Source: a virus
Reading direction: 5' to 3' (one strand)
Virus record (IMG/VR): IMGVR_UViG_3300046000_002368
Span: 1-29,626 of that record
Length of the DNA stretch: 29,626 nucleotides
Part shown: positions 3,531 through 22,699 of the stretch, piece by piece
Layout of the letters: each line of letters starts with the position of its first letter
Numbering within the stretch: position 1 is the first letter of the stretch
The notes under the pieces: generated by a model
What the model saw: the letters and a program-made list of their open reading frames with translations, nothing else
Database searches by the model: none
Told to the model about the DNA's origin: nothing
Made by a program: the position numbers and the translations under genes

Positions 3531-4106
3531 ATGAAAAATAGCCTTATAAACCAAATAAAAACTTTACTTGGAATGGAAGTAAAGTTGGAACAAATGATGT
3601 TAGCGGACGGAGTAACAGTTTTAGAAGCTGACGCATTCGAGTCCGAAATGGAAATTGTAATTGTAACGGAAGACGATCAAAAAATACCGGTACCCGTTGG
3701 AGAATACGAAATGGAAGACGGTCGTATTTTAGTAGTAGAAAATGAAGGTATTATTTCCGAAATGAAAGAAATGGAAACGGAAGAGGAAGCGCCGGAAGTT
3801 GAAGAGGAAGTTGAAGTTGAAACGGAAAAGAAAGAAGAAATGGAAACCGCAAAAGCGGCGCCAAAGAAAACTATCGAAAGCGTAGTAAAAGAAACTTTCT
3901 TCGCAGAAATCGAAGCTTTGAAAACTGAAAACGAAATGTTAAAAGCGGAATTAGCAAAAATAAACGAGGTTACAGAAACAGAATTAAGCGAAGTAAAACC
4001 AATTTCTTTTAATCCTGAAAATGACAACCCAATAGAAATTACAAGGTTAGCAAGTAAAAAACCGCGTACAATTATGGATTCAGTTTTAGACAAATTAAGT
4101 AAATAA
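3531..4106 (+). CDS. Probable capsid scaffolding protein
   Basis: The 191-residue product is strongly acidic in the middle (long Glu-rich stretch near residues 80-105) and then has a coiled-coil helix (ETFFAEIEALKTENEMLKAE) and a short basic C-terminus (ending VLDKLSK). A beta-rich N-terminal third (IVIVTEDDQKIPVPVGEYEM) precedes it. Acidic linker, coiled coil and a basic C-terminal helix that can bind capsid subunits are usual for scaffolding proteins, and the gene sits between protease and major capsid. No sequence-specific scaffold signature is known to me here, so this rests on composition and position. It may be cut by the upstream protease. Confidence 0.6.
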   Translation: MKNSLINQIKTLLGMEVKLEQMMLADGVTVLEADAFESEMEIVIVTEDDQKIPVPVGEYEMEDGRILVVENEGIISEMKEMETEEEAPEVEEEVEVETEKKEEMETAKAAPKKTIESVVKETFFAEIEALKTENEMLKAELAKINEVTETELSEVKPISFNPENDNPIEITRLASKKPRTIMDSVLDKLSK

Positions 4107-4567: not shown

Positions 4568-5518
4568 ATGAAAAACATTAATTTAAGTACAACAACGTCA
4601 ATTACAACGACGTATGCCGGAGAATCGGCAGGAAAATACATTGCTGCGGCTTTGTTAAGCGCACCAACTTTAGAAAAAGGTGGTATTACAATAATGCCTA
4701 ACGTAAAGTTCAAACAAGTTATTAAAAGAGTAGCTACGGACGATATTATTAGAAACGCAACTTGTGATTTTGATCCAACAAGTACAGTTACATTAACTGA
4801 AAAAATTCTTCAACCGGAATCGTTTCAAGTAAATTTACAACTTTGTAAAACCGACTTTAGATCTGATTGGGATGCGATCCAAATGGGATATTCAGCATTC
4901 GACGTATTGCCAAAATCATTTGCAGATTTCTTAATCGCGCATGCTGCTGAAAAAGTTGCTGCAGGTATGGAAACTTCGATTTGGTCAGGTGTTAATTCAA
5001 CTGCAGGACAATTTGCAGGTATAATGACACAATTGGACGTTGATACAGCTTTACCAGCAGGTCAAAAAATTGCAGGTACTACTGTAACGGCTGCAAACGT
5101 TATTACAGAATTAGGTTTAATGATTGATGCTTTACCAGCGGCTTTGTACGGTAAAGAAGATTTAACTTTGTATGTTTCCAATAACATTTATAGATCTTAT
5201 GTACGTGCATTGGGCGGTTTTGCTGCAGCTGGTGTTGGTGCAAACGGTTACGACAATAAAGGAACAAACCAAGTATTGAATGATTTGTATTTTGACGGTG
5301 TTAAAATATTTTTAGCTAACGGATTAGCTTCAAACACTGCATTATTAGCTCAAACTTCAAACTTGTTTTTTGCGACTGGTTTAATGAATGACATGAATGA
5401 AGTTCGTGTAATTGATATGGCAGAAAATGACGGATCTCAGAACGTTAGGGTAATAATGAGATTTACTGCAGATGTTAAATACGGATTTGCTTCGGATGTT
5501 GTTTCTTACGGAATTTAA
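4568..5518 (+). CDS. Major capsid protein, HK97-fold
   Basis: The 316-residue product has the length and pattern of HK97-fold major capsid proteins of this phage group: a flexible Thr-rich N-terminus, a strand-rich E-loop-like part (residues 40-90), a helical P-domain stretch (VLPKSFADFLIAHAAEKVAA, about 116-135), and C-terminal strands (VRVIMRFTADVKYGFASDV). Codon use looks well adapted and a strong intrinsic terminator follows directly, as expected for the most abundant virion protein. The upstream genes (protease, scaffold candidate, decoration-like protein) supply the assembly context. No covalent cross-linking residues can be asserted from sequence alone. Confidence 0.85.
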   Translation: MKNINLSTTTSITTTYAGESAGKYIAAALLSAPTLEKGGITIMPNVKFKQVIKRVATDDIIRNATCDFDPTSTVTLTEKILQPESFQVNLQLCKTDFRSDWDAIQMGYSAFDVLPKSFADFLIAHAAEKVAAGMETSIWSGVNSTAGQFAGIMTQLDVDTALPAGQKIAGTTVTAANVITELGLMIDALPAALYGKEDLTLYVSNNIYRSYVRALGGFAAAGVGANGYDNKGTNQVLNDLYFDGVKIFLANGLASNTALLAQTSNLFFATGLMNDMNEVRVIDMAENDGSQNVRVIMRFTADVKYGFASDVVSYGI

Positions 5519-6232: not shown

Positions 6233-6907
6233 TCAAAACTTTATGCCATCCATAAATTTCAAAAACTTTTTATCTTTTGTTTTATCAAACCTACCTTTAC
6301 ATAAATTTTCAAAATTTGTTACTATTTGTAAATTTTCTATTTTATTATTAAGTTTATTTCCATCAATATGATCAATAACTAATTTATGATTTTGTGGAAT
6401 ATGATTTAAATAAGTTATAGCCATTAATTGATGAACGCGCCATTCTTTTTTAATTGAAACAACTTCATACCCGTAATAATTAATTCTTTTTTTAATTATT
6501 TTATGATTTAATTTTGAATTCTTAAAATATTTAGAAAAAGGTTCTATTTTTATTATATCTACATTGTCATTAATCAAACATAAATTTTCTTTATTTTCTT
6601 TAATTGGCAAAATTTTATACCCTTTATTTATTAAATATTCAGTATGTTTTTGTTTTTCAATCAAGTATTTATTTTTAAAAATATTTTGTCGATTTTTATT
6701 ATACAATTGATTTTTTTCAAAATTTTTAATAGTTCTTATTTTTTCAAGTTCAATATTTCTTGGAGGTCTATTTTTTTTAACACAATCTTTGCAATTATGT
6801 TTTAATTTATCTTTCCTTGAATTATCTATATTAAATAATACTTTTAATTTATTCTGCTTACAACCGCTACACTTTTTTAAATCATTTAAATTTTTCATAT
6901 ACAACAT
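6233..6907 (-). CDS. HNH homing endonuclease, free-standing, antisense
   Basis: This 224-residue protein is the only minus-strand gene. An N-terminal zinc-ribbon-like part (C13, C16, C39, C42) is followed by a Lys/Asn-rich linker and a C-terminal HNH nuclease core: VHQLMAITYL with H159, then KLVIDHIDGNKLNNKIENLQ with D179-H180 and N188. This is the HNH_3-type core used by phage homing enzymes that cut intronless or intron-bearing neighbours. The gene is even richer in A+T than its surroundings, sits right after a terminator and has its own Bacteroidetes-type promoter, all signs of a mobile insertion. ATG at 6907 or the in-frame ATG at 6898 could start it. It separates the tail tube gene from the portal block. 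Confidence 0.85.
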   Translation of the reverse strand: MLYMKNLNDLKKCSGCKQNKLKVLFNIDNSRKDKLKHNCKDCVKKNRPPRNIELEKIRTIKNFEKNQLYNKNRQNIFKNKYLIEKQKHTEYLINKGYKILPIKENKENLCLINDNVDIIKIEPFSKYFKNSKLNHKIIKKRINYYGYEVVSIKKEWRVHQLMAITYLNHIPQNHKLVIDHIDGNKLNNKIENLQIVTNFENLCKGRFDKTKDKKFLKFMDGIKF

Positions 6908-14011: not shown

Positions 14012-14022
14012 AAAATTATAGT

Positions 14023-14030
14023 TATATTTG
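14023..14030 (+). promoter_or_regulatory. -7 box of the candidate small RNA promoter
   Basis: TATATTTG (14023-14030) fits TAnnTTTG. The 14-mer TTATATTTGTAAAC around it is identical to the one at the 17670 promoter. No clear -33 TTG is seen. Transcription would begin near 14034-14038. Confidence 0.6.
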
Positions 14031-14033
14031 TAA

Positions 14034-14126
14034 ACGGTTCCGTCTCACACTATAGAACTAAAAGAAGTTATTAAAACTCTGTAATGAATGTGAAGTGAGA
14101 CGCACAGGATTTACAGGGTTTTTTTT
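14034..14126 (+). ncRNA. Candidate pseudoknotted small RNA or attenuator leader
   Basis: Between a promoter box and a T run lies a ~90-nt segment with no convincing ORF. Helix 1 pairs CGTCTCAC (14041-14048) with GTGAGACG (14095-14102), eight perfect pairs. Helix 2 pairs AAAACTCTGTAA (14073-14084) with TTACAGGGTTTT (14111-14122), twelve pairs with one G-U, and runs into Ts to 14126. The strands alternate (H1, H2, H1, H2), so both helices together form an H-type pseudoknot; helix 2 alone is a terminator. A small hairpin (AACT/AGTT at 14056-14069) sits in loop 1. It may be a free small RNA or the leader controlling the replication block. Known class: none that I recognise. Confidence 0.65.
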
Positions 14127-14145: not shown

Positions 14146-14319
14146 ATGGATTTAACAATGACAATGGAATTTGAATCAGGATTAGAAGTTTCTATTATGA
14201 TGTGTGAAAAAGAACAAATGGTATTAATTGATTTTGGCGAAGAGGAATGGAATTTTACGATTACAGAATTTTATCAATTTGTGACAATGCTTGAAAAAAT
14301 TAAACCTTTGAAAAAATGA
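14146..14319 (+). CDS. Hypothetical acidic protein, 57 aa
   Basis: Start ATG 14146, 20 nt after the T run of the candidate RNA; stop overlaps the replication gene by ATGA (14316-14319). Met/Glu rich (MTMEFESGLEVSIMMCEKEQ) with strands then a helix (TITEFYQFVTMLEKI). No family recognised. Being the first gene after the RNA, it is the natural reporter of any read-through control. Confidence 0.6.
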   Translation: MDLTMTMEFESGLEVSIMMCEKEQMVLIDFGEEEWNFTITEFYQFVTMLEKIKPLKK

Positions 14320-14972
14320 GCGGTTGGATTAGAATACACCGACAATTTTTAAATTGGGAGTGGTTTAATAAAAGCGAAGCAGTTCATTTGTTTATGTATT
14401 TAGTTTTAAAAGCAAATCACAAAGACGGATTTTGGCAAGGAAATGAAATAAAAAGAGGCCAGTTAATAACATCATTTGGTAAAATTTCAATTGACACAAA
14501 TATAAGTTTACAAACAATTAGAACGCTTTTAAAAAAGTTTGAAAAAACAAACGAAATCAACATGCAAACAACAAACAAATTCACACGCATAACTATATGT
14601 AAATATGATAGTTACCAAACAGAAAACGAAGACACCAACACGAAAGTAACAAACAAACAACAAACAACTAACACGCAACTAACAACAAACAAGAATGTAA
14701 AGAATAATAAAGAAATTATTTTAGATTCATGGATCGATTACAGGAAACAAATTAAAAAACCAATTAAGGATGCAACAATTCAATCAATATTAAATAAAAT
14801 GGAAAATTATTCAGAAGATCAATGTAAACACGTAATAAATAATTCAATCCAAAACGGATACCAAGGTTTATTTTGGGAAAATTTACCTTTAAACAATTCA
14901 GAACCTGAAATGGATGCACTCGCAAAACACTTATTCGAACACAATGCAAAATTCAGCGGGCAAATCAATTAA
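14316..14972 (+). CDS. Replication initiator-like winged-helix protein
   Basis: The 218-residue product starts GWIRIHRQFLNWEWF, a pattern seen in phage replication proteins with a DnaD/replisome-organiser-type winged helix. The helix-turn-helix (about residues 55-85: ISIDTNISLQTIRTLLKKFE) is followed by a wing-like strand (TTNKFTRITICKYDSY), a Thr/Asn/Gln-rich low-complexity linker (about 100-128) and a C-terminal helical domain (ILDSWIDYRKQIKKPIKDAT). Proteins of this build bind the origin and load the helicase. The DnaB/RecA-type ATPase gene starts inside its end (29-nt overlap), which supports the call. Confidence 0.7.
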   Translation: MSGWIRIHRQFLNWEWFNKSEAVHLFMYLVLKANHKDGFWQGNEIKRGQLITSFGKISIDTNISLQTIRTLLKKFEKTNEINMQTTNKFTRITICKYDSYQTENEDTNTKVTNKQQTTNTQLTTNKNVKNNKEIILDSWIDYRKQIKKPIKDATIQSILNKMENYSEDQCKHVINNSIQNGYQGLFWENLPLNNSEPEMDALAKHLFEHNAKFSGQIN

Positions 14973-15909
14973 TTACCTTCTCGATTATCGAAACGGTAAA
15001 ATAAAACAAGGCCTTGAAATAGGCTGCGGCTTGGATAATTATCTAAGATACAAACCAAAACAACTGAATATAATTTTAGGCCATGACAACGTAGGAAAAA
15101 CGTATTTTATCAATTGGTATTTTTTGACACTTGCAATCAAACACAACCTGAAATTTATATTGTGGAGCGGCGAAAACCAACAAGGGCAAATTTTACGCGA
15201 TATGATCCAAATTTACAGCGGCCAAAATTTCATGGAATTAACCGAACAGGAAATTAGAAGTTATTCAACCTACATTGAACAATTTTTTGAATTCGTAGAT
15301 AATAATAAACTTTACAAACCTGAAGAATTATTAAAAATATTTGAAGAAAGCGACGCAAACGCATGTTTAATTGATCCTTTTACCGGATTAGATCGTGAAA
15401 TGAGTTACGAAGGTAATTATAGGTTTTTAAATTTAGCGCGTCAATTTGTAAATCAAACAGGAAAAACAATTTATATCAATACGCACCCAAATTCAGAAAG
15501 CGGCCGCAGTGGTAATTTATACCCTGAAGGACACATTTTTAAAGGCCATTTAAAACCACCGTTAAAAGATCACATTGAAGGCGGCAAAGCGTTTTTAAAT
15601 CGTTGTGACGATATGTTTGTAATTCACCGATTAATTAAGCACGAAACTCACAAATATTTAACAATGGTAAACGTTGAAAAAATAAAAGATAAGGACACGG
15701 GCGGCGAATTAACGGCTTTGGATAGTCCTATTTTATGTAATTTTAATTTCGGATTAGGATTTACAGTTAATGAAGTCGATCCTTTAAAAGATCAAAGGCC
15801 AAAAAAAATTGCAAACCAATTTTCAACAAAACTAAAATTTGATAACGTTCCTGAATTAATTTCCACGACTGAAAAAATAAGAATTGCAAACGAAAACGCA
15901 CCATTTTAA
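14944..15909 (+). CDS. Replicative helicase-type RecA-fold ATPase
   Basis: I start at ATG 14944; an ATG at 14914 is possible but is deeper inside the upstream gene. The 321-residue product has Walker A GHDNVGKT (46-53), a likely catalytic Glu in WSGEN (E77), Walker B CLIDPFTGLD (141-150), and sensor-like IYINTHPNSESG (H180). This is the RecA core of DnaB-family helicases (Twinkle or T4 gp41 type) without the N-terminal primase-binding domain. It would unwind phage DNA and is probably loaded by the winged-helix protein upstream. No primase domain was found in the window, so host primase may serve. A RadA-like ATPase is the alternative. Confidence 0.75.
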   Translation: MQNSAGKSINYLLDYRNGKIKQGLEIGCGLDNYLRYKPKQLNIILGHDNVGKTYFINWYFLTLAIKHNLKFILWSGENQQGQILRDMIQIYSGQNFMELTEQEIRSYSTYIEQFFEFVDNNKLYKPEELLKIFEESDANACLIDPFTGLDREMSYEGNYRFLNLARQFVNQTGKTIYINTHPNSESGRSGNLYPEGHIFKGHLKPPLKDHIEGGKAFLNRCDDMFVIHRLIKHETHKYLTMVNVEKIKDKDTGGELTALDSPILCNFNFGLGFTVNEVDPLKDQRPKKIANQFSTKLKFDNVPELISTTEKIRIANENAPF

Positions 15910-15920
15910 AAAATAAAATT

Positions 15921-16481
15921 ATGGAAAATGAAGTATGGAAAGATATAGTAGGATATGAAGGTTTATACGAAGTGTCTAATTTAGGAAATGTTAAAAGTTT
16001 ACCAAAGGAATGGATTTCAGCATGTAAGCGTAAACATGATGGAATATTATTAAAAAAAACAATTAATAATCGTGGAACTGGTTATTATCAAGTAGGATTA
16101 ACTAATAACAAAATTCGTAAAACAAGAACAATTCATCAATTAGTAGCAGAAGCCTTTTTAAATCATAATCCTTGTGGTTATAAATTAGTTATAGACCATA
16201 TTAATAATAATACTTTAGATAATAGAGTTGAGAATTTACAAATAATAACGCAAAGAGAAAACGCTTATAAAAACCAAGTATCTTATTCAAGCAATTATAA
16301 AGGCGTTTTTATGGGTTGTAAAAAGTATAAATCAAAAAAAACTGGAGAGATAAAAAAATATAAATATATATCAAGTCAAATAAATATTGATGGTAAAATT
16401 ATCCGTTTAGGAACGTATAAAACAGAAGAAGACGCACATTTAGCTTATCAAAACGCACTAAAAAAACACGAATTATGTTAG
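15921..16481 (+). CDS. HNH homing endonuclease with NUMOD4 and AP2 domains
   Basis: The 186-residue product has a NUMOD4-type start (WKDIVGYEGLYEVSNLGNVK, residues 6-25), an HNH core (H72 in IHQLVAEAFL, D92-H93 in VIDHINNNTLDNRVENLQ, N101) and an AP2-like DNA-binding end (about 124-182, with IRLGTYKTEEDAHLAYQNAL). This is the standard design of free-standing phage homing enzymes. It lies between the helicase and the coiled-coil gene; it follows the helicase stop by 11 nt and overlaps the next gene by 7 nt, as if it had settled in without disrupting neighbours. Its target is probably the matching site in phages that lack it. Confidence 0.9.
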   Translation: MENEVWKDIVGYEGLYEVSNLGNVKSLPKEWISACKRKHDGILLKKTINNRGTGYYQVGLTNNKIRKTRTIHQLVAEAFLNHNPCGYKLVIDHINNNTLDNRVENLQIITQRENAYKNQVSYSSNYKGVFMGCKKYKSKKTGEIKKYKYISSQINIDGKIIRLGTYKTEEDAHLAYQNALKKHELC

Positions 16482-18207: not shown

Positions 18208-18967
18208 AACAGTTTTATTCGATGCGGACAGCCTTATTTATCAATCGGTTTATAAGGTTGTCGACTTCGCCGAAATACGCGAAATGTACAAAGCAAAAAA
18301 ACAGCGTTTCGAAATTGAAATGGAAATCCTGCAACGCGGTTATGATCGTTTTGAAAAACTAACTTTTGATATTTTAAACGAAATTGAAGAACATTACAAC
18401 GTAACAAAAACAAATTACTTTTTTACAAAATGCAAAAATAATTTTAGAAAACAAATAGATCCACAATACAAAGCAAACAGAACCAAACGTAATAAGTGGG
18501 TAAACGAACTTCGCGATTATTTATTGGAATATTGGGAAAATTCATACGCTCACGACGAATACGAAGCAGACGATTTAATTTATTACAATGCTGAAACAAT
18601 GGCCGTAAATCAATATATTATTTGCAGCATTGATAAAGATTTAAAACAAATACAGGGTTTACATTTCGATTATTACCAGCTAAAAAGATACGACGAAAAC
18701 GGAGAAATATTTAAAATACGCAAAGGATTTAAAAACATGACAAAAACCGATTGTGAAAATTTACTTTGTGAACTGTTTTTAGTAGGGGATGCCAGCGACA
18801 ATATAAAAGGAGTGAAAGGAATAGGAGAAATAAAAGCAAAAAAAATAATTTACTCAAAGAATTCAACCTACGGAAAATTCAGGGCAATTTGCGAAGCTTA
18901 TAAAAATGAGTGTGAAATGTGGAAAGAAAAATTAAGAATGAATTACAAATTATTAAAATTTAATTAA
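18191..18967 (+). CDS. 5'-3' exonuclease, FEN/PIN-type
   Basis: The 258-residue product carries the acidic metal-binding residues of phage 5'-3' exonuclease/flap nucleases: FDADSLIY (D11, D13), EYEADDLIY (E125, D127, D128), SIDKDLKQI (D148, D150), GDASDNIKG (D200, D203), and then the helix-hairpin-helix GVKGIGEIKA (207-216). Enzymes of this group (T5 D15, T4 RNase H) remove flaps or resect DNA 5' to 3'. ATG 18191 is used; ATG at 18197 is also possible. Overlap with the ERF gene suggests joint production for recombination. Confidence 0.9.
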   Translation: MKMEFKTVLFDADSLIYQSVYKVVDFAEIREMYKAKKQRFEIEMEILQRGYDRFEKLTFDILNEIEEHYNVTKTNYFFTKCKNNFRKQIDPQYKANRTKRNKWVNELRDYLLEYWENSYAHDEYEADDLIYYNAETMAVNQYIICSIDKDLKQIQGLHFDYYQLKRYDENGEIFKIRKGFKNMTKTDCENLLCELFLVGDASDNIKGVKGIGEIKAKKIIYSKNSTYGKFRAICEAYKNECEMWKEKLRMNYKLLKFN

Positions 18968-19132
18968 ATGAATCCTGAAGTAAACGAAGAGATTAACGAA
19001 TATAAGCGCGAAATTAGGGAGCTGCGGAGCGTTTTAATGCACATTATAGATCAGATTGATAATAACACGCCATTAACAAGTGAATCGCTTATAATTAAGA
19101 TATGTAGAGAAGAGTTAAAAATAAATAAATAA
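18968..19132 (+). CDS. Hypothetical protein, 54 aa
   Basis: ATG 18968 is immediately after the exonuclease stop; 54 codons to TAA 19130-19132. The product is helical and charged (NEEINEYKREIRELRSVLMH) with a second helix (SESLIIKICREELKI). No known motif; next gene starts 2 nt later. Confidence 0.65.
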   Translation: MNPEVNEEINEYKREIRELRSVLMHIIDQIDNNTPLTSESLIIKICREELKINK

Positions 19133-20604: not shown

Positions 20605-21144
20605 GTGAATGAAGAACTATTAAACGATTTATCGAAGCACCACAAAGAATGGATTAAAATTGTGCGCGGTTTTGGGGAAACGTTTTATACGGAAGACATA
20701 GTCCAGGAAATGTATATTAAATTAATTCAGCAGGAAAACGCGGAAAAGTTTTATAAAAGCGGCAAAATTTACAAAGGTTATATTTGGATTATTTTACGCA
20801 ATATGTTTGTAGATTACCAAAAAACAAAATTAAGATTAGTAAAAGTAAGCATTACTGAAGCGATCCAATTAAAAGACGTAAGCGAAACAAACGAAAGAAC
20901 ACGCGCAAAAACTAAAATTGAAGAGTTAATAACAGAAACAGTTAAAAGCTGGCATTGGTACGATCAAATGTTATTTAATTTATACAGGGATTCAGGATTA
21001 AGTTACAGACAAATAAGCGCCGTTACAGGCATTAGTTTTAAAAGTATATATTCCACGATAGCAAATTGTAAAAAGTCGCTTAAACACGAAGTAAAGGAGC
21101 ATTACGAAGATTATATAAACCAAGATTACGAATTAATAAAATAA
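20605..21144 (+). CDS. Phage sigma-70-like factor
   Basis: The 179-residue product starts at GTG 20605; the overlapping ATG at 20609 is out of frame. It has a region-2-like helix set (YTEDIVQEMYIKLIQQE, then YIWIILRNMFVDYQKTK, about 28-75) and a C-terminal region-4 HTH (QMLFNLYRDSGLSYRQISAV, 121-140, then TGISFKSIYSTIANCKKSLK). This is the two-domain form of ECF-type sigma factors. It lies directly before the methylase and terminase genes, a frequent place for such proteins in Bacteroidetes phages, and may direct host RNA polymerase to late genes or be a transcription adaptor. Regions are recognisable but divergent. Confidence 0.7.
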   Translation: MNEELLNDLSKHHKEWIKIVRGFGETFYTEDIVQEMYIKLIQQENAEKFYKSGKIYKGYIWIILRNMFVDYQKTKLRLVKVSITEAIQLKDVSETNERTRAKTKIEELITETVKSWHWYDQMLFNLYRDSGLSYRQISAVTGISFKSIYSTIANCKKSLKHEVKEHYEDYINQDYELIK

Positions 21145-21525: not shown

Positions 21526-22699
21526 AGTAAACATATCGCAGGTTAAAGCAAACCCAAAGAACCCGCGCGTAATTCGGGACGGCAAATTTCAAAAATTAGT
21601 TACTTCAATAAAGGAGTTTCCTGATATGCTAAATAAACGCCCGCTAATCGTTTTTACAGACGTTGACGGTAAATATTGCGTACTTGGAGGTAATATGCGG
21701 TTAAAAGCGTTAAACGAGCTAAAATACACCGAAATACCGGTTATAATAGCAGATGAATGGACGGAAGAACAAAAAGCGGAATTTTTAATTAAAGATAACG
21801 TTGGTTTTGGTGAATGGGATTGGAATCAGTTAGCAAATGAATGGGACGCGGAAAATTTGGATGACTGGGGTTTGGATTTACCTATTGATTTACACGTTGA
21901 AGAATTAGAAGCAACGGAAGATAATTACGAAATTCCAGAAACAATTGAAACCGATATTGTTGTTGGCGATTTATTTGAAATAGGTGAACACCGTTTACTT
22001 TGTGGGGATTCAACCGATTCGGACGCAGTGTCAAAATTAATGAACGGCAAAGAACCTTATTTAATGGTTACCGACCCGCCTTATGGAGTAGATTACAAAC
22101 CCGAGTGGAGAAGTGAAGCAATGCCTGATAAAAATGATGAGTTTCACGGTAGAAGCATTGGGAAAGTTAAAAACGATAATAACGCAGATTGGACTGAAGC
22201 TTGGTCTTTAACACCATCAAAGGTTGCTTATGTTTATCACGCTGGTATATTTAGCGGCGTTGTTCAAAAAAGTTTAGAAAATTGTGATTTTGAAATTAGA
22301 AGTCAAATTATTTGGATGAAAAGTCATTTTGCAATTAGCAGAGCGGACTATCATTGGAAACACGAACCTTGCTGGTACGCAGTTAAAAAAGGTAATAAAG
22401 GAAACTGGATAAGTGATAGAAAACAAACAACAATTTGGGAAATTGACAAGCCACAAAAAAATGAAACTGGTCACAGTACACAAAAACCTATTGAATGTAT
22501 GTCAAAGGCAATAGCAAACCACGCTGGAGATGTATACGACCCGTTTTTAGGTAGTGGTACAACAATGGTAGCATCCCACCAATTAAAACGCAAATGTTAC
22601 GGTATGGAATTAGACCCGAAATACTGCCAAGTAATAATCGATCGAATGAAAAAATTAGACCCAAGTTTAGTTATTAAGAGGAACGGAATTACAATGTAA
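21518..22699 (+). CDS. ParB-like nuclease domain fused to DNA methyltransferase
   Basis: I start at ATG 21518; a TTG at 21494 is less likely. The 393-residue product has an N-terminal ParB/sulfiredoxin-type domain (VKANPKNPRVIRDGKFQKLV and GGNMRLKALNEL, 57-68) and a C-terminal amino-methyltransferase of the beta order: motif IV TDPPYG (DPPY 186-189) comes before motif I DPFLGSGTTM (341-350), with SAM site residues GMELDPKYC after. DPPY points to N6-adenine or N4-cytosine methylation. No cognate restriction enzyme is present, so it probably protects phage DNA or regulates packaging or expression. This fusion is known from many phages and prophages. Terminase small subunit follows after 10 nt. 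Confidence 0.85.
   Translation: MIKVNISQVKANPKNPRVIRDGKFQKLVTSIKEFPDMLNKRPLIVFTDVDGKYCVLGGNMRLKALNELKYTEIPVIIADEWTEEQKAEFLIKDNVGFGEWDWNQLANEWDAENLDDWGLDLPIDLHVEELEATEDNYEIPETIETDIVVGDLFEIGEHRLLCGDSTDSDAVSKLMNGKEPYLMVTDPPYGVDYKPEWRSEAMPDKNDEFHGRSIGKVKNDNNADWTEAWSLTPSKVAYVYHAGIFSGVVQKSLENCDFEIRSQIIWMKSHFAISRADYHWKHEPCWYAVKKGNKGNWISDRKQTTIWEIDKPQKNETGHSTQKPIECMSKAIANHAGDVYDPFLGSGTTMVASHQLKRKCYGMELDPKYCQVIIDRMKKLDPSLVIKRNGITM

Follow-up and report, generated by a model that had tools for sequence, protein, structure and literature searches.

An apparently undescribed family of two-hairpin RNAs with complementary loops, mostly upstream of replication genes in viruses of Bacteroidota

What kind of RNA is encoded in the 90 or so nucleotides that separate a promoter box from the replication genes of an uncultivated virus? 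The window (the whole 29.6-kb viral record analysed here) carries a replication region encoding a DnaD-like helicase loader, a primase/helicase-like ATPase, a NinG-like protein, ERF, and an exonuclease. Just ahead of this block, an earlier note had described a promoter-driven, terminator-ended, pseudoknotted small RNA of a class it did not recognise, which might alternatively act as an attenuator. All of the sequence features that it named (the -7 box, both helices, the T run, and the ACAGG motif) are present at the positions given below, and a promoter-driven, terminator-ended RNA with tertiary structure, 5′ of the replication genes, is supported as a prediction. Two open reading frames in the window resemble HNH-type endonucleases by eye (6233–6907, minus strand, and 15921–16481, plus strand), the second within the replication operon. 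Downstream of the replication block, positions 20605–21144 encode a protein that matches phage sigma factors of RNA polymerase (PHROG 1740, E 2.5e-9).

The element spans approximately 14036–14126 and comprises two hairpins (P1, and the P2/P3 hairpin, which resembles an intrinsic terminator) with complementary 8-nt loops. Its parts, and the genes that follow, are:

14023–14030, plus strand: -7 promoter box of the Bacteroidota type, TATATTTG (read directly)
14036–14040, plus strand: P1, 5′ strand, GGTTC (5/5 P1 pairs with two-sided changes, 98.9% paired)
14041–14048, plus strand: kissing strand K5, CGTCTCAC, inside the P1 loop (7/8 pairs of the kissing helix, K, with two-sided changes, 98.6% paired)
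14049–14054, plus strand: other loop positions of P1, ACTATA (AttAta as the family consensus, from alignment A5)
14055–14059, plus strand: P1, 3′ strand, GAACT (P1 covariation)
14060–14072, plus strand: unpaired A/U-rich linker of 13 nt (82% A+T and mostly 12–15 nt across the family)
14073–14084, plus strand: terminator stem P3, 5′ strand, AAAACTCTGTAA (12/12 P3 pairs with two-sided changes, 90.6% paired)
14085–14088, plus strand: internal loop, 5′ side, TGAA (conservation of 90% or more in A5)
14089–14092, plus strand: apical stem P2, 5′ strand, TGTG (5/5 P2 pairs with two-sided changes)
14095–14102, plus strand: kissing strand K3, GTGAGACG, 3′ of AA in the loop of the terminator hairpin (K covariation)
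14103–14106, plus strand: apical stem P2, 3′ strand, CACA (P2 covariation)
14107–14110, plus strand: internal loop, 3′ side, GGAT (conserved in A5)
14111–14122, plus strand: terminator stem P3, 3′ strand, TTACAGGGTTTT (P3 covariation)
14119–14126, plus strand: T tract of 8 T, terminator-like (read directly)
14146–14319, plus strand: first downstream open reading frame, 57 aa, without a family match (start 19 nt past the T tract)
14316–14972, plus strand: DnaD-like helicase loader, the first recognised gene of the replication operon (PHROG 2514, E 2e-28)

The 14-mer TTATATTTGTAAAC (14022–14035), which includes the -7 box, recurs exactly upstream of the ERF gene at approximately 17669, and the 14-for-14 identity reported between the two promoter regions holds. 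Searches with Rfam 15, the check proposed for the claim of an unfamiliar class, bear that claim out: no family reached its gathering threshold in the window, the best sub-threshold match over the element scoring at most 17.6 bits, and 16 loci with diverse members gave no match besides an unrelated tRNA. Searches of the open literature turned up no account of such an RNA in these phages; a 2017 survey of 224 RNA candidates was compared through Rfam only.

The earlier note had seen two interleaved helices, and both the K5/K3 and the P3 pairings are indeed present. The P1 and P2 stems, however, had been overlooked, and their recognition shifts the picture from an H-type pseudoknot to a pair of kissing hairpins. 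An H-type pseudoknot consists of two interleaved helices without further closing stems, whereas here the crossing strands each sit in a hairpin loop closed by its own covarying stem (P1 or P2); the CGTCTCAC/GTGAGACG helix is thus read, on comparative grounds, as a loop-loop kiss and not as a pseudoknot of that type. The K5/K3 duplex is fully paired, with a computed free energy of -11.7 kcal/mol. In the predicted fold of a transcript that ends before the 3′ strand of P3, K5 is paired with K3, and hence the kiss may be able to form before the terminator closes.

It had also been suggested that ACAGG (14104–14108) could pair with CTCTGT, to part of which it is complementary, in place of the terminator strand, and so act as a switch. 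The motif is present in the window, yet it consists of the 3′ strand of the covarying P2 together with the start of the conserved GGAT, and relatives such as L033 and L068 retain it even though the 5′ strand of P3, its presumed partner, becomes CCCTTTCA or CCCTGCTT. A switch of this kind is therefore given almost no credence. A conserved short open reading frame within the element (ATGAAN..TGA) was likewise considered and dropped, as by eye the frame is lost when P2 has five pairs.

Whether the fold is real depends on its relatives. The first source of these was an IMG/VR pattern scan with CGTCTCAC-N20-50-GTGAGACG, in which at least 59 or so loci with the whole architecture were present among the matches listed, usually with a 5′ TAnnTTTG and a 3′ T tract; having been fished by K, this set is unable to test K. 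Two patterns that left both loops free returned 14 and 22 loci, and in these K5 and K3 vary yet match each other (CTTCTCAC/GTGAGAAG, CGTTCGAC/GTCGAACG, CTCCTTAC/GTAAGGAG, and others). When loci were anchored solely on the downstream replication protein, 46/94 passed a strict scan, with approximately 20 types of K, again varied but matched. Many of those that did not pass hold, by eye, a version that has diverged further and has a kiss of 6 bp, such as GTTC[GTGCAG]GAAC, for which the terminator loop carries CTGCAC (L248 and L295), or CATC[ATGCAG]GATG in L273 against [CTGCAT] in L274; others have no intergenic gap.

Covariance model R1 was built from 12 sequences with the kissing helix omitted from its structure, and its matches yielded alignment A3. 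Across the 61 distinct sequences of A3, 26 of the 30 pairs of the full structure show two-sided changes (score 0.673, against 0.06–0.13 for slid controls); in A5, which holds 87 distinct sequences including protein-anchored loci, the count rises to 29 of 30, with 95.3% of positions paired (score 0.734, against 0.08–0.13). P1, P2, and P3 guided the fitting of both alignments, and the covariation counts for those three stems accordingly lean towards the structure. The kissing helix is absent from the models, and in A5 its pairs nonetheless show two-sided changes at seven of eight positions and are 98.6% paired. Approximately 30 distinct K5/K3 combinations occur, with every or almost every position matched, and the helix is also paired in the sets found without requiring a kiss, namely those from the loop-blind patterns and the protein-anchored loci. 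Compensatory changes, proposed at the outset as the test of the helices, are thus present in all of them. The window itself belongs to this family of kissing hairpins (P1, kissing helix, P2, and P3, each with compensatory changes), scoring 81.6 bits (E 3.5e-14) against R1, whose seed excludes it, and 96 bits against R2, whose seed includes it. In three genomes with two copies (G001, G039, and G042), the loops differ between the copies but match within each, which points to intramolecular pairing. It is almost certain, from this directly observed covariation, that the RNA folds into two hairpins joined by their complementary loops.

TAnnTTTG lies 5′ of P1 in 88/102 distinct relatives and is placed 5–7 nt upstream in 75/102, making the 5′ edge of P1 the likely transcription start. 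A co-directional open reading frame begins within approximately 60 nt of the T tract, and mostly within 0–30 nt, in 96/97 distinct elements with enough flank; a near downstream gene is partly expected for any intergenic element, because phage genomes are compact. These first genes fall into approximately 40 unrelated clusters, a figure partly biased by the protein anchor, and include replication proteins, small proteins, ParB-like proteins, and a methyltransferase. Most copies lie directly upstream of replication genes. Where one genome carries two divergent copies, both are upstream of a co-directional gene of their own.

Position and gene coupling favour a leader or attenuator over a separate small RNA, the two options originally offered, and coupling to a co-directional gene, whichever gene that is, counts for a leader. 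The reading preferred here, and held with moderate confidence, is that of a promoter-proximal leader which partially terminates transcription into the downstream operon and releases an RNA of approximately 90 nt. Transcription from the TATATTTG promoter would begin at or slightly before P1, which would fold first and expose K5 in its loop. K3, once transcribed, would pair with K5, and the strands of P3 would then close to form a terminator immediately 5′ of the first gene. Some polymerases would stop at P3 and the T tract, setting free a compact RNA, and the remainder would read through, allowing expression of the replication genes (or, in other cases, of HNH or further genes). By joining the terminator loop to the 5′ hairpin, the kiss may tune this termination decision, stabilise the released RNA, or both; that termination is partial, how large the RNA is, and that the kiss sets the read-through level are all inferred.

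The main argument for partial termination is that no second promoter is obvious for the replication genes, whose transcripts must hence cross the terminator-like hairpin: between the element and the ERF promoter (17670), the window contains a single other TAnnTTTG, at 15612 within a coding gene. Upstream genes are mostly co-directional, and thus read-through from upstream could also feed the operon. The longest T run is at least six in 56/97 elements and five or fewer in 41/97, and several tracts are interrupted (for example, TTTTGCATTT and TTTACG); T tracts that are often short or interrupted fit leaky, incomplete termination. Complementarity of the linker to either strand of P3 is not above that of shuffles and no competing antiterminator was found; any regulation would thus depend on a protein, on an RNA acting in trans, or on the kiss. 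For the same reason the element does not qualify as a ligand-sensing riboswitch with alternative terminator and antiterminator pairings, and diverged members have so little in common besides architecture that a conserved class-wide ligand pocket is not evident.

The same surroundings could be taken to mean that the structure merely stabilises or insulates the mRNA, shielding its 5′ end or blocking read-in from upstream without regulation of its own. The element does lie right at the start of the predicted transcript and precedes many unrelated genes; however, a plain stem or terminator would suffice for such a role, yet even highly diverged sequences retain the architecture with a matched second loop, and this explanation is considered decidedly unlikely. 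A role as replication origin or primer RNA for the replication module would agree with the location of most copies just 5′ of replication genes. Against this, several copies are found 5′ of HNH endonuclease genes and apart from the replication genes, and two copies can occur in one genome; an origin or primer is held very improbable.

Second copies are often found 5′ of HNH-type genes (tooticki6-1 gp032, L029, G001, and G039), the identity of which was judged by eye except for the tooticki annotation, and the element and the endonuclease perhaps move together. Second copies directly 5′ of HNH-type genes and away from replication genes occur at 3596–3690 in L162, 2697–2795 in L029, 2014–2112 in L139, and 5805–5902 in L141.

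How widely the arrangement is distributed was examined with an architecture scan blind to sequence, which sought only a TAnnTTTG box, a hairpin whose loop holds K5, a second and terminator-like hairpin whose loop holds K3, and a T tract. Nine matches, many more than chance would give, were obtained at 1180 promoter-like sites, in 8/12 cultured Bacteroidota phage genomes, against 0.25 expected from 20 whole shuffles (5 matches at 21804 sites), under rules tuned to members because the scan was written after members had been seen. The scan gave no match in phages 6H, crAss001, P12024S, and phi14:2, and none at 1107 promoter-like sites in 800 kb of host DNA from a Sphingobacterium chromosome. Two weak R1 matches of 22–23 bits occur in crAss001 (NC_049977) at 71687–71782 (minus strand) and 93289–93362 (plus strand).

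The cultured phages 11b, Elemovirus, Harreka_1, phi19:3, and phi18:3 carry a like arrangement in the gap 5′ of their replication genes with little shared sequence, the kissing pairs being CGGGCAGG/CCTGCCCG in 11b and GTGGTGG/CCACCAC in Harreka_1. FL-1 has an element at 18932–19029, and FCL-2 an architecture-scan match at 37475. In Lillamyvirus/Muminvirus (L162 at 4643–4735, L168, and L169), the loops are swapped, with AAGTGAGACG in the 5′ hairpin and CGTCTCACACTAC in the loop of the terminator. A non-circular rearrangement of modules is on record for another RNA, the hammerhead ribozyme (PMC10085705). L162, L164, and L167 also share a conserved GGTnnTCTTnAAACC-like motif just 5′ of the start codon of the replication protein or of a preceding gene of approximately 70 aa. 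The class thus appears to be defined by architecture, in which a 5′ hairpin loop pairs with the terminator hairpin loop, and not by sequence. Bacterial copies are rare (two Sphingobacterium genomes with the exact pattern; 1/395 Bacteroidota genomes with R1 under strict filters), and the element is nearly restricted to phages. Short BLAST matches of the FL-1 element inside coding genes for Klebsiella phage topoisomerases, and of the window to Corynebacterium phages, were taken as chance.

The kissing loops appear to change faster than their flanking stems. Among close pairs of the protein-anchored set, two-sided changes in the closest bin are 0.23 for K, 0.28 for P2, 0.07 for P1, and 0.13 for P3. 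Between L225 and L232, three of the eight K pairs and three of the four P2 pairs have changed, with P1 and P3 unchanged. Several matched changes in the kissing loops, in one case with changes in P2, are seen where P1 and P3 are identical or nearly so in L225/L232, L277/L278, and L271/L284. Over 24 independent pairs, K differs at either 0 or 2–7 of 16 positions; this is a small sample, and the zero-difference pairs are mostly those fished with CGTCTCAC.

Such diversification would be unneeded for a purely local contact, and it is among the points in favour of a serious rival to the leader: a free-standing gene for a trans-acting small RNA, with its own promoter, kiss-closed fold, and terminator, that targets a protein or other RNAs and for which the site 5′ of the replication genes is merely convenient. 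The element is a complete transcription unit within 90 nt, and many members have 6–8 T after a strong stem. There is, however, no conserved accessible seed, the loops being consumed by the internal kiss and the linker being variable and A/U-rich, and the strict coupling to a downstream co-directional gene extends to second copies; the small RNA gene is accordingly regarded as possible, on a tentative footing. Faster change of K, if real, suggests selection on loop identity. On this basis the kissing loops may be an identity tag, with the ~90-nt RNA acting in trans on nascent leaders that bear the same loops: K5 of one molecule would engage K3 of another and so raise or lower termination before the replication genes. 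This is speculative and thought unlikely; if true, it would amount to a system of superinfection exclusion, or a sensor of copy number, made of RNA only and found across Bacteroidota phages, the loops of which diversify to avoid cross-talk.

To our knowledge, little is known about gene regulation in Bacteroidota phages, and if the promoter-proximal leader does gate the replication operon it would represent a control step in these viruses. The family is large and apparently undescribed, and its presence in cultured, named phages (FL-1, FCL-2, 11b, phi18:3, phi19:3, Harreka_1, Elemovirus, and Lillamyvirus/Muminvirus) makes it testable now. The diversity of its loops would also supply natural orthogonal RNA parts.

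The element is rated a new RNA class among known phage leader and terminator RNAs, and among the systems compared here P4 CI RNA, IsrK, and HK022 put RNA come nearest by way of working. P4 CI RNA derives from the leader of a phage replication operon, in which RNA-RNA pairing and premature termination control entry into the replication genes (PMC4825925). The window element similarly precedes a phage replication operon and combines RNA-RNA pairing with proposed termination; however, P4 CI is a processed RNA that pairs with separate seqA and seqC sites, whereas here the complementary loops of two hairpins lie in a unit of approximately 90 nt with its own terminator, and no sequence relation is seen between the two. 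In IsrK of the Salmonella prophage Gifsy-1, one promoter gives rise to both a short terminated sRNA and a read-through mRNA (PMC4825925). The same pair of products is proposed for the window element, which is likened to IsrK by arrangement; action in trans on translation of the read-through mRNA is a feature of IsrK (PMC4825925). c4 antisense RNA (RF01695), listed from Proteobacteria and their phages (PMC2864571), is also a small structured phage RNA and has a role in gene control, but it was unmatched in the Rfam search of the element. Finally, the HK022 put RNA is approximately 70 nt long with two stem-loops, and putL lies directly 3′ of an early phage promoter (PMC9378689). In HK022 each of the two divergent early operons has its own copy, as in genome G039. 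The resemblance is one of position only (two hairpins just after a promoter): put, which lacks a terminator, binds RNA polymerase and in cis suppresses termination at terminators farther downstream, whereas in the window element the second hairpin is itself terminator-like and the two loops pair with each other.
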